Origin: Gammaproteobacteria bacterium
GTDB lineage: Bacteria; Pseudomonadota; Gammaproteobacteria; Natronospirales; REEB76
Direction: 5' to 3'
NCBI GenBank assembly: GCA_036383255.1
Contig: DASVOS010000008.1
Span: 1-51,435 of the forward strand
DNA: 51,435 nucleotides
Below are positions 43,775 through 51,403 of this stretch, in pieces; within the stretch, counting starts at the first letter, position 1, and the number at the start of each line of letters is the position of its first letter. A program made the position numbers and the translations under genes. The notes under the pieces are model-generated. The model was not told the DNA's origin. It made no database searches and was given only the letters and a program-made list of their open reading frames with translations.

Positions 43775-45904
43775 TCAGAAGCCGAAGCTGGCGCTCAACT
43801 CGATGAAGCGCGCGGGCAAGAGATAGGACTGGCTGTCGCCGAGCTCGCTGTTGGAGACGGGGTCGCGACGATCGTTGAGATTGCGGCCCTGCAGGTTGAG
43901 GCTCCAGGTGTCGAAACGGTAGCCCACGCCGGCGTCGAAGGTGGTGTACGCGGGCGTCGAGACGCTGTTCTCCGGGTCGAAGTAACGGCTGCCCACGTAG
44001 CGCAGCACCGCGTTGGCGGTGAAGCCGCGTGCCGGCATGTAGAACAGGCCGGTGGAGAAGAGGTCCATGGGCGAGAGCTCGAGGCGATTGCCCGCGTCCT
44101 GCACCAGGCCCGCGGGCGTGCCGTCAGTGTCATGCAGGAAGTCGCGGTAAGCGGCCTTGTGGTAGCTGTAGGCCACCTGCCAGCGCCAGTCGTCGGCGAT
44201 GCGCCAGTCGGCCTCGAGTTCCACGCCCTCGAAGCGCTGCTTGCCGCCGTTGGCGATGCCGGGTGTGCCGCCGTTGTTCACCGCGACCACGGTGTTGTTC
44301 ATGTCGGTGAGGAAGGTGCTCGCCTCCCAGTCGAGGGCGCCCTGCATGAGGGTCCCCTTCACGCCGAACTCATAGGCCTGGGCGGTCTCGGGCTCGAGGA
44401 TGTCCGGCTCCGCCTCGGGGCCGAAGTCGATGGCGGCAGGCTTGTAGGTGTTGCGGTAGTTGCCGTAGATCACCATGTCGTCGGCGCCGTCGGTCCAGGC
44501 CTCGTAGCTCAGGGCGAGCAGGCCGGAGAAGCGCGTGTCGCTGCGGTGGTCGCCGTCGAGTTCCGCGTCCTCGGCGGGATCGGAGGGCAGGAATGCGGTA
44601 TCAGTGCTTTCCACGTCGTGGTTGAGCTGCAGGCCGAACTGGAAGTCCCACTTCGGTGCGAAGGCCCAGTCCATGCTCGTATACAGGCCGCTGAAGGTCC
44701 GCCGGTCCGAGAGGCGGGTGCGCTCGTCCACCGGCACGGAGGTGCTGGGGGGTGGGTTGGCGCCATCGAGATGTACGAAGTACTCGAAGTTGGAGCTGGC
44801 CTGGGAGCCGGAACCCTGTAGCAGGCTGAAGCCGGTGACGACGTGCATATCGTCCTGCACCGGGAAGGTGAGGTGGCTGTCGAAGTAGATGTCGGTGCGG
44901 TCCTGGGTCTGGTTGAAGCCGTCCGCATTCGGCGCACCGGTGTCGGTGAGCGAGTCGGAGCGCAGGAAGCCGCGGATGTTGCGCTGGTGGGTGAACACGG
45001 TGGACAGCACGGTGCTCCACTCGGCCCACTTGAGGTCCGCGTCGTCGGCGAGAGTCAGGCCGACCCGGTCTTCGTCCATGCGCGCGTCGCTGGGATTGTT
45101 GTTGCTGTCCTCCGGCACGAGCGGCGTGAGCTCGGTGTCGCCGGGGGCGAGCGGGCGCGGGCTGGCGGGGTCCTGGCGGATGGACAGGCCGTCCACGTCC
45201 AGCCTGAACTCCCCGCTGGCGGTGGTGACGGAGTTGCGCAGCAGGACGTGGGAACGGCCCCACTCGGCCCGGTCGTCCGAGAAACCCTGCTTGGTGTAGT
45301 CGGCGATCAGCGACTGTTCGATGGCTCCATCCTGGGTCAGGGGCAGGGTGACGCCGACACTATGGCTGCCGTAGGAGCCGACCGAGACGCGGGCCTGGCT
45401 GCCGGGTGCGCCGGCCTTGATGTGGATGACGTTGATGACGCCGACGAAGGAGGTGGCGCCGTACTTGACCGGGGCCGAACCGCGGATCACCTCGATGCGG
45501 TCCACGCCGGTCAGGTCCACGGTAGCGAGGTCCGGGTTGAAGGCGCCGCCCACCGGCACGCCGTCCACCAGCAGCAGGAAGGCATCGAACTCGGCGAGGC
45601 CCTGGAACTGGGGCACGGAGGCCGTCGGGCCGTTGTCGCCGCCAGGACCGATGTCCACGCCGGCGGTGAGGGCAAGGGCGCTGCGCAGGTCGACGGCGCC
45701 CAGGGCCACGAGCTGGTCATGGGTGATGACGTCGATGCTCTGGGGCACGGTGCCAAGGTGCTCCGGCATGGGCGTGGCGGTGACCTCGATGGCTCCCAGG
45801 GACTGGGTACCCTCCGGAGCCTGGTCGTCTGACCAGGCGAGGGGACTCACGGCGAGGCCCGTGACGAGGCAAGCCAGGGTCAGGCGTGGGAAGCGGATAT
45901 CCAT
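43775..45904 (-). CDS. TonB-dependent outer-membrane receptor
   Basis: This 709-residue receptor has a signal peptide ending near LAWSDD and a plug domain with IEVTATPMPEHLG as a TonB-box-like start. The plug also has LLLVDGVPV and VDRIEVIRGSAPVKYGATSFVGVINV. A long beta-barrel follows and ends in the aromatic tail SASFGF. It imports an unknown large or scarce substrate such as a siderophore or metal chelate. No Fur or Irr site could be identified by eye in the promoter. It diverges from a small secreted protein gene and has a strong terminator. Confidence 0.93.
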   Translation of the reverse strand: MDIRFPRLTLACLVTGLAVSPLAWSDDQAPEGTQSLGAIEVTATPMPEHLGTVPQSIDVITHDQLVALGAVDLRSALALTAGVDIGPGGDNGPTASVPQFQGLAEFDAFLLLVDGVPVGGAFNPDLATVDLTGVDRIEVIRGSAPVKYGATSFVGVINVIHIKAGAPGSQARVSVGSYGSHSVGVTLPLTQDGAIEQSLIADYTKQGFSDDRAEWGRSHVLLRNSVTTASGEFRLDVDGLSIRQDPASPRPLAPGDTELTPLVPEDSNNNPSDARMDEDRVGLTLADDADLKWAEWSTVLSTVFTHQRNIRGFLRSDSLTDTGAPNADGFNQTQDRTDIYFDSHLTFPVQDDMHVVTGFSLLQGSGSQASSNFEYFVHLDGANPPPSTSVPVDERTRLSDRRTFSGLYTSMDWAFAPKWDFQFGLQLNHDVESTDTAFLPSDPAEDAELDGDHRSDTRFSGLLALSYEAWTDGADDMVIYGNYRNTYKPAAIDFGPEAEPDILEPETAQAYEFGVKGTLMQGALDWEASTFLTDMNNTVVAVNNGGTPGIANGGKQRFEGVELEADWRIADDWRWQVAYSYHKAAYRDFLHDTDGTPAGLVQDAGNRLELSPMDLFSTGLFYMPARGFTANAVLRYVGSRYFDPENSVSTPAYTTFDAGVGYRFDTWSLNLQGRNLNDRRDPVSNSELGDSQSYLLPARFIELSASFGF

Positions 45905-46597: not shown

Positions 46598-47338
46598 TCA
46601 GTGGGACGCGGCCAGTATGGCGCTGAAGACGCCGTCTACCTCGTCCTGGCTTTCCACATAGAACGCAGCGCTGGAGTCCGGCTTGTTGCCCACGCGGATC
46701 CCGAGCACCTGATCGGGGCGGTTCAGGCTGAAGATATCCTCGTCGGTCTCGTCGTCCCCGATGTAGATGGCGCGCGCGCATCCAACCCGGGCACAAGCCA
46801 CCAGCAGCGCCGAGCCTTTGTTCGGAGCCTCGTGGAGCAACACATTGACCACCGCCTTGCCGGGGACAACACGGGCGCCAGGCAGGCGTGACACGGCCCG
46901 CATCACGAGATCACGCGCCACCGTCCAATCCGGGCTGCTGCGGTAGTGGATCGCCAACGAATAACGCTTGTCCTCTACGCTGATTCCCGGTGACGCTGCC
47001 AGCTGGCTGGCCAGCTGATCGCGCCAGGACGCGACCCGGCTTTCCAGAAAGCGAGACACGACGCTGGCACCTTCGGCGCCATGGTTTCCGATGATCTCGA
47101 CCGGCAGGTCGGAGAGCAGGCGACGTGCATCGGCGACAGCCCGGCCGGTGATGACCACGGTCGGGTAGCGGGACGCCGCCCGCTCCAGGCAGGCACGGGT
47201 GTGCGAGGGGATCCTCGCTTCATCGGGATTGGCGGTGATTGGAGCCAGGGTACCGTCATAGTCGAGACCCAGCAGGGTCCCGGGACCGCTGAAGCGTCCG
47301 AGCTCAGCCATGCCCGCAGGTGAGAACAGATGCATCAT
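46598..47338 (-). CDS. otsB: Trehalose-6-phosphate phosphatase
   Basis: This 246-residue HAD phosphatase has the nucleophile motif DYDGTLAP near the N-terminus, VVITGRAV, NHGAEG, and a late GDDETDEDIF. It turns trehalose-6-phosphate into trehalose. The start ATG overlaps the otsA stop by four bases (ATGA), so otsA and otsB are one transcript. Confidence 0.95.
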   Translation of the reverse strand: MMHLFSPAGMAELGRFSGPGTLLGLDYDGTLAPITANPDEARIPSHTRACLERAASRYPTVVITGRAVADARRLLSDLPVEIIGNHGAEGASVVSRFLESRVASWRDQLASQLAASPGISVEDKRYSLAIHYRSSPDWTVARDLVMRAVSRLPGARVVPGKAVVNVLLHEAPNKGSALLVACARVGCARAIYIGDDETDEDIFSLNRPDQVLGIRVGNKPDSSAAFYVESQDEVDGVFSAILAASH

Positions 47339-49590
47339 GTTAGCCCGCGCTCTTCGATGTCATTGATGGAAAGTATGCCCGCCAGCCGCTCTCGCTGGCG
47401 CAGGCGGCTCGCGTCGAGCAGCATGCGCCCGGCCCAACGGTAGATGTTGTATTCAGAGACGAGGGCCCGCATCGAACGTATGCGCGCGGCCTGCTCATCC
47501 GCTGACATGTCGAGGGCGGTGGCGAGCGCCGTGCCCGCTTCCTCGATATCATAAGGATTCACGATCAGCGCCTCGGTGAGCTCACGGGCGGCTCCGGTGA
47601 ACCGGGAGAGGATGAGCACGCCGCGCTCGTCGTCCCGGGCCGCCACGAACTCTTTGGCCACGAGGTTCATGCCATCGTGCAGGCTGCTCACATAGCATAG
47701 GTCGGCAGCACGGTAGTAACGGAACACCTCGGAGGGCTCGGTATGCCGGCGGACCAGCAAGATCGGGCGCCAGGAGTCCCGCGCGAAGCGCGCGTTGATG
47801 CGCTCGGCCAGCGCCTCGACGTCCGTGTTCAGCCGGCTATAGCGCTCGATCAGCGTGCGGCTGGGTGAGGCGACTTGCAGGAAGGTAAAGCGATCGTGCA
47901 GGTCAGGGCGCCGTTCCAGCAGCCGCTCCACCGCCAATAGCCGTTCTTCGATTCCCTTGGTGTAGTCGAGCCGGTCGATGCCGACGCCGAGCAGGCCATC
48001 CTCAGGCAGACCCAGCTCCCGGAACAGGGCACGACGGCATTCCGCCGCGGGCGGCGCATCCTTGAGCCAGTGGTTGGGCCATTCCACCGAAATCGGATAG
48101 CCGCGTACCAGGGTACGACGACCCTCGCGGACCACGGCAAGATCCTCACGATCTAGCCGCGCCTCGAGGAACCGGTCGGCCGCTTCCATGAAGTTGTTGC
48201 AGTGAAAGCGGGTATGGAACCCGAGGATGCTGCTGCCCAGCAGGCCTTCGATAAGCTCGTTGTGCCACGGGCAGATGCTGATCTGCTCGGCGTTCGGCCA
48301 GGGTATGTGCCAGAACGTGAGGATGGTGGCGCGCGGGAGGCGCTCGCGCAGCATGCGCGGCAGCAAGGCGAAATGGTAGTCCTGCACCAGGATCACCGGA
48401 TCGTCCGTATCGGCTTCCTCACAGACCGCGTCGGCGAACAGGCGGTTGACCTCGCGGTAACTGCTCCAATCCTCCTCCCGGAACGTCGGCCGGTTGTGGG
48501 CCACGTGGCATAGCGGCCACAGACCCTCGTTGGAGAAGCCGTAGTAGTAGCCCCGCTCCTGCTCGGGGGTCAGCCACAGGCGCCGGACCATATAGGACTC
48601 CTCGCCGGGCGGCACGCGCACATGCCCTTGGCGGTCGGCGGTCTCGCGATCCGCGGAGCCCGCGCCGTGCGCGATCCAGACACCGGAGCAGGCGCGCATC
48701 ACGGGCTCCAAGGCAGTCACCAGGCCGCTGGCGGGATGCAGCACGCGCACCTCACCGTCCGGGCCGCGCTCGTGGATATAAGGTTCGCGGTTCGCGACCA
48801 CGATCAGCCGCTCGCCATGCAGATGGCGGTTGAGCGTGAGCTTGAGACGCTGCGGCGTCCATACACCGCCCTGCAACTCCGCCTGCTCCTCCGTCGCCAG
48901 GCGCTGCAGGAGGTCGCGCATGTCCCGTATCAGCGGCAGGAAGTCGCGGCGCACGGACGGTTCCTTGCCTTGGGCGATGCGGCGGAGTCCTTCACTCCAG
49001 CTGTGCCATGAGAGGCGCACCGCGAACAGCGTCACCAGGGCAGCCAGCAGGGCGAGCAAGGCGAACGAGCCCAGCAGGAAGGTCTGGGTGAGTGCTTCGC
49101 GGCGCTGTGCAAAGCTCAGGTCCTGTACCAGCACCACGAAGCCGAGCAGGGCGGAGTCGTCCACCAGTGGGAAGGCGCTGACGTGCACGGCACCACCCGG
49201 CAGGTCCGAGGTGGCGTGCCATGCGCGCCAGTCTTCCGCAGGCGTTGCGGCCGTGGGCCTGAGCTTGGTGCCGACCTCAGCGCACGAAAAGCGGGCAGGA
49301 AAGTTCGGTGTGCTGGCCCGGGGACGCAAGTCCGGCCCGCAGACGTCGACCGCCATGACGCGCTCATCCCGGGTGATGTCCTGGAGAAGCGCGCGCAGGG
49401 CGCGCAGGTCATTGCGCCGCAGCTGGTCGATGAGAGCGGGGCGGGCACCGGTCATGGCCAGCTCGGCGCGCAGAGCTACGTCCCGGTCGAACCATTGGTG
49501 CGCCGTGCGGTTCACCACCCACGCACCCGTGGCGCTGAGGAGCGCAAGCCCCGTCAGCGTGGCAACGGTGAAACGCAGGCGTGGACTCAA
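47335..49590 (-). CDS. otsA: Trehalose-6-phosphate synthase fused to a membrane sensor-HAMP-like module
   Basis: This 751-residue protein is much longer than E. coli OtsA (474). Residues 7-27 and 169-191 are membrane helices enclosing a periplasmic region of about 140 residues with a single-Cache-like pattern. Residues 190-240 look like a HAMP linker. The GT20 enzyme runs from about 261 to 751. Catalytic equivalents are present: R268 (ANREP), D404, H428 (FWHIPWP), R540 and K545 (DRLDYTKGI), D639 and E647 (DGMNLVAKE). It makes trehalose-6-phosphate from UDP-glucose and glucose-6-phosphate. The start is TTG 49590, five bases after GGAGG; a GTG 30 bases upstream lacks such a site. It diverges closely from the GH15 gene. 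Confidence 0.92.
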
Positions 49591-49639
49591 GACATCCTCC
49601 GATGATGTCAGCACAGCCACGATTTGCTACCGTTACGCT

Positions 49640-51403
49640 ATGCGACTTGAAGATCTGGGACTGATTGGCAACTGCCAATTTGCCGCGCTCGTGGAGAGCA
49701 GCGGCAACGTGGTGTGGTGCTGCCTGCCCAGATTCGATTCCGAGCCGGTATTCGGCTCATTGCTTGACGGGTCCGGCGGTCAATTCAGCGTGAATCCACC
49801 GGAAAAAATAGCCGGAAAACAGTGCTACGCGGAGAATTCTAACATACTGCAAACGGCGTTCGAAACCTCCGAGGGCGTGTTCCGCGTCACCGACTTCGCG
49901 CCGCGCTTCCAACGCAACGGGCAGATGTTCCGTCCCACACAGCTGGTGCGGATCGTGGAGCCGCTGCACGGCACGCCGCAGGTCTCGGTACGCTGCGAAC
50001 CAACGCTGGGTTGGTCGAAGCTGACACCAGCACGCCAGCAGCGGCCCCATGGCATTGAATACCGTGGCTATTCCGCGCAATTGCATCTGGACACCGATAT
50101 ACCCGTCGAGTGCCTCACCGGCAAGCCTTTCCTCCTGACGGAGCGCAAGCATCTACTGCTGACATGGGGTGAACCATGCGCGGGCCCCCCGGCCCAGGTA
50201 TGCCATGAGCTGCATGCAGAGACGCTGCGCTACTGGCAGCGCTGGGTGAAGCATTGCAACATCCCCACGCGCTATCAGCGCGAGGTGATACGGTCGGCGC
50301 TGGCACTGAAGCTGCACTGCTTCGAGGACACAGGCGCAATCGTGGCGGCCGTCACCACTTCCGTCCCCGAGTCGGCCGGCAGCGGACGGACCTGGGACTA
50401 TCGCTATTGCTGGCTGAGGGATGCGTACTACGTGATGGATGCGTTGCGCCTGCTCGGCCATTTCGAAGAGCGGGAACACTTCATCCAATACCTGCTCAAG
50501 GTCAGCGCGAACGCGCCAGAGCTGGACCTCAACCCGCTGTACCGCGTGGATGGTGGTTCGGACCTGGAAGAAAGGATCATGGACAACTGGGCCGGCTTCA
50601 ACGGCGACGGACCGGTACGCGTCGGGAACGCCGCGGCACGGCATCGCCAGCATGACGTCTTCGGCGAGCTGGTGCTGGCCATGAGTCCGATATTCCTGGA
50701 CGAGCGCTTCAGCCAGGAGCGCTCGCCGGCAACCCTCGACCTGCTGGAGCGACTCACGCAGAAAGCAATCTCAGTGGCCGGCACACCATGCGCAGGCATC
50801 TGGGAAGTGCGCAAGCAGTGGGAGCCGCAGACTTTCTCGTCACTCATGTGCTGGGCGGCAGCGAACCGGATGGCGCGCATCGAATCAGCGCTCGGCACTG
50901 GTAGGGCCGAGGGGTACCGCCAGGCCGCCGCGGGATTGCACGGGCAGATAACGACAAACGGGTGGAGCGGGGAAATCAACGCGTTCGCCGGCAGCTATGG
51001 AGGTCGGCAACTCGACGCAGCGCTGCTACAGATGGCGCCGCTGCGGTTCCTCCCGGCAGACGATCCGCGCCTGGTGCAGACGGTGGATGCCATACATGCC
51101 GGCCTGATGCGTGACGGCTGGCTGATGCGGTACCGCGACGACGACGGATTGGGCGTGCCGTCCGTCGCGTTCGTGATCTGCACCTTCTGGCTGGTGGAGG
51201 CGTTGGTGGCGACCGGACGCAGCGCCGAAGCGCGGGGAATCATGGACCGGGTGCACGAAGTGCTTTCGCCGCTCGGCCTGATGGCGGAAGATTGCGATGT
51301 GGCCGGCCGGCGCCTATGGGGGAACTTCCCGCAGGCCTACTCGCACGTAGGTCTGATCCGCGCCGCATTCGCGGCTTCCCCGCACTGGTCGGAGCTGCTC
51401 TAG
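49640..51403 (+). CDS. GH15 glucoamylase/trehalase-like hydrolase
   Basis: This 587-residue glycoside hydrolase has the standard GH15 N-terminus (RLEDLGLIGNCQFAALV), WDYRYCWLRDA at W252 and the acid motif GIWEVR with E389. The base candidate is E550 (MAEDCDV) before WGNFPQAYSHVGLI. The stretch after GIWEVR (KQWEPQTFSSLMCW) departs from the common RGxxxHFTHSKVMCW form. GH15 members cleave alpha-glucans, isomaltosides or trehalose. Beside otsBA, a role in trehalose or glucan turnover is likely. No ribosome site is seen before ATG 49640; only 49 bases separate it from the divergent otsA start. Confidence 0.88.
   Translation: MRLEDLGLIGNCQFAALVESSGNVVWCCLPRFDSEPVFGSLLDGSGGQFSVNPPEKIAGKQCYAENSNILQTAFETSEGVFRVTDFAPRFQRNGQMFRPTQLVRIVEPLHGTPQVSVRCEPTLGWSKLTPARQQRPHGIEYRGYSAQLHLDTDIPVECLTGKPFLLTERKHLLLTWGEPCAGPPAQVCHELHAETLRYWQRWVKHCNIPTRYQREVIRSALALKLHCFEDTGAIVAAVTTSVPESAGSGRTWDYRYCWLRDAYYVMDALRLLGHFEEREHFIQYLLKVSANAPELDLNPLYRVDGGSDLEERIMDNWAGFNGDGPVRVGNAAARHRQHDVFGELVLAMSPIFLDERFSQERSPATLDLLERLTQKAISVAGTPCAGIWEVRKQWEPQTFSSLMCWAAANRMARIESALGTGRAEGYRQAAAGLHGQITTNGWSGEINAFAGSYGGRQLDAALLQMAPLRFLPADDPRLVQTVDAIHAGLMRDGWLMRYRDDDGLGVPSVAFVICTFWLVEALVATGRSAEARGIMDRVHEVLSPLGLMAEDCDVAGRRLWGNFPQAYSHVGLIRAAFAASPHWSELL

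Follow-up and report, generated by a model that had tools for sequence, protein, structure and literature searches.

Trehalose-6-phosphate synthases of the OtsA type have been described mostly as soluble enzymes, including those of E. coli and M. thermoresistibile, and some are under post-translational control or have a sensing role. Mycobacterial OtsA is controlled allosterically by cytoplasmic metabolites (PMC6879718), and OtsA from Arthrobacter has been described as an osmotic sensor that undergoes self-assembly (PMC5685639); both are without a membrane sensor. In Thermoproteus tenax, the TPSP-GT-MSC complex ties trehalose-6-phosphate synthesis to a membrane stress component, with another protein activating the synthase, and an operon comparable to msc-gt-tpsp was known nowhere else in 2013 (PMC3634074). 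Extracytoplasmic PAS/Cache receptors such as WalK, CitA, DcuS, KinD, and DctB have a common order of transmembrane helix, PAS/Cache fold, second transmembrane helix, and helical linker, and their outputs are kinase, cyclase, or chemotaxis domains. In DcuS/CitA-type receptors, the signal is passed along the second transmembrane helix (TM2) (PMC7857512).

The window analyzed here, a stretch of 51,435 nucleotides from a gammaproteobacterial contig, encodes a single chain that combines elements of these systems. It has a complete GT20 domain, the mapped donor and acceptor residues, and an otsB partner in common with soluble OtsA, yet differs by about 260 extra N-terminal residues that hold two transmembrane helices and a periplasmic domain. 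It shares its front-half layout with the PAS/Cache receptors, at about 10% sequence identity and with no HAMP domain recognized by Pfam, whereas its output is a sugar glycosyltransferase. The T. tenax operon encodes its activator and its mechanosensitive channel as separate proteins, whereas in the present case enzyme and membrane part form one fusion. Through this one chain, an external signal may act directly on how much trehalose, a protective sugar, the cell makes, a form of control suggested by the architecture. In the open-licence portion of PMC text, no functional description was found of a trehalose-6-phosphate synthase that is membrane-bound or fused to a HAMP or sensor domain, in agreement with the first-pass annotation, and the family is widespread but apparently undescribed.

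Gene structure and receptor-like front half

The open frame spans positions 47335-49620 on the minus strand. The best of its three candidate starts (GTG 49620, GTG 49614, and TTG 49590) is TTG 49590, the only one with a Shine-Dalgarno sequence and the one with which the starts of homologues, mostly ATG, align. The gene thus lies where the first-pass annotation had placed it, and its features are collected in Table 1. Over the N-terminal half, identity is 49% to the closest relative and averages 30% across the relatives, and the family profile matches the window protein with an E-value of 8e-76.

Table 1. Coordinates of the fusion gene, its encoded domains, and adjoining genes in the window
Feature	Positions	Strand	Details
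Sensor-OtsA fusion gene	47335..49590	(-)	751 aa, TTG start
Shine-Dalgarno GGAGG	49596..49600	(-)	5 nt spacer to TTG 49590
Transmembrane helix 1	49504..49569	(-)	about residues 8-29; hydropathy; AF2 helix 3-59
Periplasmic PAS/Cache-fold sensor domain (predicted)	49111..49491	(-)	about residues 34-160; AF2 pLDDT mostly >90
Transmembrane helix 2	49021..49089	(-)	about residues 168-190; hydropathy; AF2 helix 159-206
Helix-loop-helix linker	48865..49020	(-)	residues 191-242; AF2 helices to 206 and 215-239
Conserved W-x-P-x-x-L adaptor helix before GT20	48820..48861	(-)	residues 244-257; AF2 helix 246-256
GT20 trehalose-6-phosphate synthase domain	47416..48810	(-)	residues 261-725; PF00982
otsB, trehalose-6-phosphate phosphatase	46598..47338	(-)	start shares 4 nt with the end of the fusion gene; PF02358 E 1e-22
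GH15 trehalase-like gene (TREH_N + Glyco_hydro_15)	49640..51403	(+)	divergent; 49 bp from fusion start

Two hydrophobic helices flank the periplasmic domain in all 64 aligned full-length relatives, as judged by hydropathy. An AlphaFold model built with the 64-row alignment has a pLDDT of 90.1 for residues 1-258 and 89.7 for the full chain, and it orders the protein as a long first transmembrane helix, a mixed alpha/beta domain, a long second transmembrane helix, a loop, a second helix, the short adaptor helix, and the GT20 domain. The alpha/beta domain is predicted to have the PAS/Cache strand order. The top-ranked Foldseek matches were the sensor domains of WalK, CitA, and KinD, with DctB also among the closest receptors; VIA-align gave a Z-score of 13.9 and an rmsd of 2.1 over 130 residues against the WalK receptor domain (4ywz_B), and 15.5 and 6.2 over residues 1-251 against a model of whole WalK. 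The predicted front half therefore resembles receptor sensors, a likeness of fold that does not imply a ligand.

Matches of the family profile also include the sensor regions of membrane adenylate cyclases and of histidine kinases (best E-value 2.4e-9). A few relatives have weak Pfam matches to dCache_1 (1.9e-5) and CHASE4 (0.0026). The window protein itself matched none of the Pfam Cache and CHASE models, and searching by sequence with its N-terminal half found no solved structure at E<=1. Cys84 and Cys103 occur together in 58 of the 64 relatives, are both absent from the other six, and never occur singly, a pattern that fits a periplasmic disulfide. D37, R41, R77, D157, and R164 are kept in 62-64 of the 64; such kept positions amid a low mean identity are what a functional sensor whose ligand pocket varies would be expected to show, and no ligand-binding motif was identified.

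The linker that follows TM2 is HAMP-like in position and shape, not in sequence. Pfam HAMP (PF00672) recognized none of the 64 family members at E<=1, and the hhalign comparison of the linker with a HAMP alignment was marginal, in the correct register with an E-value of 0.014 and a probability of 3% (E-value 0.067 for clade B). It is on account of these profile results that the linker is named HAMP-like rather than a HAMP domain, with weak support. In the adaptor helix, W244 and L249 are invariant in all 64 relatives.

The front half of a receptor kinase that the first-pass annotation had read in this protein, a periplasmic domain together with a pair of membrane helices, is thus borne out, and its refuting case, that neither a HAMP nor a Cache fold would be predicted, falls away with the modeled PAS/Cache fold. 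For its HAMP-like linker, the place and the predicted helix-loop-helix shape agree, Pfam HAMP gives no match, and the profile comparison in the correct register is marginal.

The GT20 domain and its pathway neighbors

The PF00982 match covers profile positions 2-469 of 473 with an E-value of 9e-116, which corresponds to a full-length GT20 domain, and the closest solved structure is the mycobacterial OtsA 5jij (E-value 1e-81). Ligand contacts were mapped from M. thermoresistibile OtsA (PMC6879718) and, by alignment, from E. coli OtsA. The residues that contact the donor (R540, K545, D639, N642, E647, H428, and G289) and those that contact the acceptor (R268, Y349, D404, and the phosphate arginine R578) are all present and invariant in the 64 relatives, in keeping with the complete domain and intact catalytic residues noted at first pass. 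One further acceptor contact of the M. thermoresistibile enzyme, Gln146, is His in both E. coli OtsA and the window protein.

By score, the fusion is a GT20 member outside the curated OtsA equivalog, with 420.7 bits against the TIGR02400 cut-off of 564.85. Its 309.6 bits against TIGR02398, with a cut-off of 569, together with the retained arginine for the phosphate of glucose-6-phosphate, rule out identity as a glucosylglycerol-phosphate synthase. Two histidines invariant in all 64 relatives set the family apart from OtsA: H308 (about 48667-48669) replaces a Trp of the GWPG motif, and H638 (about 47677-47679) replaces an Arg that is the allosteric-site Arg384 of mycobacterial OtsA. These histidines may be a sign that the family handles its substrates, or is controlled, in a different way.

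The fusion and otsB pathway probably yields trehalose, because otsB lies directly downstream, within 450 bp, in 68 of 94 fusion loci and the GH15 trehalase-like gene lies within 1 kb in 60 of them. The otsB product of the window scores 88.5 bits against TIGR00685, above the cut-off of 68.05. Further downstream of otsB is a gene for a TonB-dependent receptor (43775-45904, minus strand) whose siderophore-receptor-like scores fall short of the cut-off; nothing matching it was found beside the fusion in the other loci.

The genome of the window also has a second cluster, ordered otsB-GH15-soluble otsA-mscS (L060 5168-10194; G000:C9:55000-70000), in which the GH15 gene carries TREH_N and the start of the MscS-family gene overlaps the otsA stop (ATGA). 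Neither treS nor treY was matched in this genome. Given this soluble OtsA cluster and the lack of a treS or treY match, the second copy, membrane-bound and equipped with a sensor, looks specialized.

MscS-family genes also occur beside the fusion itself. In two genomes of clade B, the second subclade (G099 and G130), such a gene runs into the start codon of the fusion, with an overlap of 8 nt in L056 (5859-6926) and of 4 nt in L059 (6975-8099), an arrangement reminiscent of msc-gt-tpsp in T. tenax (PMC3634074) that lends circumstantial support to an osmotic role. Within the flanking sequence covered, mscS was present in about 9 of 95 loci, so it is suggestive in one subclade and ruled out as a general neighbor of the family. 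Soluble GT20 genes adjoin mscS in L034, L035, L037, and L038.

Distribution and history of the family

At least 571 coding relatives were recovered when genome contigs were scanned. Among them, the 80 best come from Acidobacteriota, Pseudomonadota, Myxococcota, Bdellovibrionota, Thermodesulfobacteriota, Nitrospirota, and Gemmatimonadota, and also include single MAGs labeled Planctomycetota and Cloacimonadota. None of the 64 aligned full-length relatives, which represent at least seven phyla, lacks the sensor front half or either helix. In the class of the window, 13 of 369 sampled genomes have a close fusion relative; a DNA pattern for FWHIPWPN gave four matches in 398 genomes of the phylum, a pattern too strict to serve as a measure of frequency. 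A 713-aa frame (L003) was rejected as a close fusion relative, as it groups with soluble GT20 proteins.

In a quick tree of 88 GT20 domains, those of the family make up a single clade distinct from soluble OtsA (SH-aLRT 99), and the soluble second OtsA of the genome falls outside it. Because sensor-bearing forms stand on both sides of the deepest split of this clade, the sensor is most simply read as ancestral to it. One rhizobial lineage departs from this layout: WP_083948901, encoded on an Aminobacter plasmid, and the proteins of 14 of the 15 genomes of one family that matched have a single transmembrane helix, a short linker, and GT20, without the sensor. This group nests inside the sensor-bearing clade, a tree that groups the sensor-bearing rows being rejected by the AU test (p-AU 0.0012), and the nesting indicates that the anchor can outlive the sensor. 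One rhizobial member of the clade, on a long branch (L172; G909:C5), has no transmembrane helix recognized upstream of GT20.

In L024 (979-3105; G229:C53), the first transmembrane helix and the periplasmic domain are kept, and TM2 and most of the linker are missing by in-frame deletion, which would place the enzyme across the membrane from where it belongs or else reflect an assembly error; the same genome holds a second, intact copy. In a genome of the window's own family, L012 (G006:C40:7643-8089) is a GT20 remnant with an internal TAA. No plasmid record reaches 80% coverage of the fusion, and the sensor-less Aminobacter form comes nearest; spread of the fusion by plasmids was rejected on this basis.

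A proposed receptor enzyme and its alternatives

The architecture, predicted fold, intact active site, pathway neighbors, and broad retention are matters of observation, and the balance tips modestly toward reading the protein as a membrane-tethered trehalose-6-phosphate synthase, a one-piece receptor enzyme modulated by its periplasmic Cache domain. Positive residues after TM2, the cysteine pair, and cytoplasmic substrates suggest a membrane-inserted protein with the enzyme in the cytoplasm. There, NDP-glucose and glucose-6-phosphate would be joined into trehalose-6-phosphate at the inner membrane face, which OtsB would then convert to trehalose. A change in the Cache domain, caused by a small ligand or by the state of the envelope or osmotic conditions, could move TM2 and the linker, as in receptors of the CitA/DcuS/WalK type, and this motion could shift the enzyme between open and closed forms or between oligomeric states, so that synthesis would be raised or lowered without a kinase or transcription step. 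Osmolarity is a candidate signal from the logic of the product and the mscS genes beside some members.

The main rival, less likely but serious, is that the membrane part tethers without gating, with the helices holding the synthase close to OtsB, to a sugar transporter, or to a mechanosensitive channel and the periplasmic domain stabilizing or localizing the protein or pairing it with a partner. Tethering alone may matter because the rhizobial lineage lost the sensor and kept one membrane helix with the same GT20, which counts against gating, as do the failure of Pfam to recognize HAMP, the usual transmission module, in any member and the negative outcome for a ligand-binding motif; the mscS genes that overlap or adjoin some otsA genes also agree with a tether. 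On the other hand, the other sampled lineages retain the sensor, its highly conserved positions, and a receptor-typical fold, and one rhizobial member is without any recognized transmembrane helix. The GT20 score below the TIGR02400 cut-off counts against the receptor-enzyme model from another side, and the same layout with a different acceptor, and hence a different glucosyl compound as product, is kept in view because the domain falls below the OtsA cut-off, as it does below every NCBIfam GT20 equivalog cut-off, and because H308 and H638 near the active site are family-wide. This is improbable given that the contacts to glucose-6-phosphate are invariant (residues from PMC6879718), the neighboring phosphatase scores as a trehalose-phosphatase, and a trehalase-like GH15 gene adjoins.

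Moonlighting of OtsA has been reported for Arthrobacter A3 (PMC5685639), and the GT20 fold could by analogy be a non-catalytic, metabolite-sensing module of a receptor that signals elsewhere; invariant catalytic residues and otsB in the operon leave this very improbable. Hardly any weight attaches to a soluble OtsA made from an internal start, with the N-terminal half an annotation artefact or skipped, although in-frame GTG, ATG, and TTG codons are present at residues 191-264. Met occurs at any such column in at most 14 of 64 relatives, so an internal start is conserved in none of the candidate columns, and the N-terminal half is itself conserved, with the same coding-like GC3 (0.83) as the GT20 half. 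The start near residue 255 that the first-pass annotation had weighed against its own reading is ruled out by these columns and by the Shine-Dalgarno sequence at TTG 49590.

The proposal of a sensor-gated synthase is thus partly supported: the architecture is real, widespread, and sensibly read, with the HAMP assignment weaker and the gating less certain than first stated. In its general form, the proposal is that these proteins constitute an undescribed and widespread family of one-component receptor enzymes, each with an enzyme of osmolyte biosynthesis gated directly by a periplasmic Cache sensor and thus with a metabolic output replacing the kinase, cyclase, or chemotaxis module; it stands at about even chances. 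The fusion is a ready module for studying how a Cache domain drives an enzyme other than a kinase, and the natural set of sensor-bearing forms, anchor-only forms, and one form without a recognized helix makes the question of gating directly testable. If the gating is real, bacteria of many phyla would control a central stress protectant at the level of the enzyme from a periplasmic signal, by a route shorter than two-component or transcriptional control, and a biosynthetic enzyme would be added to the known outputs of Cache receptors.
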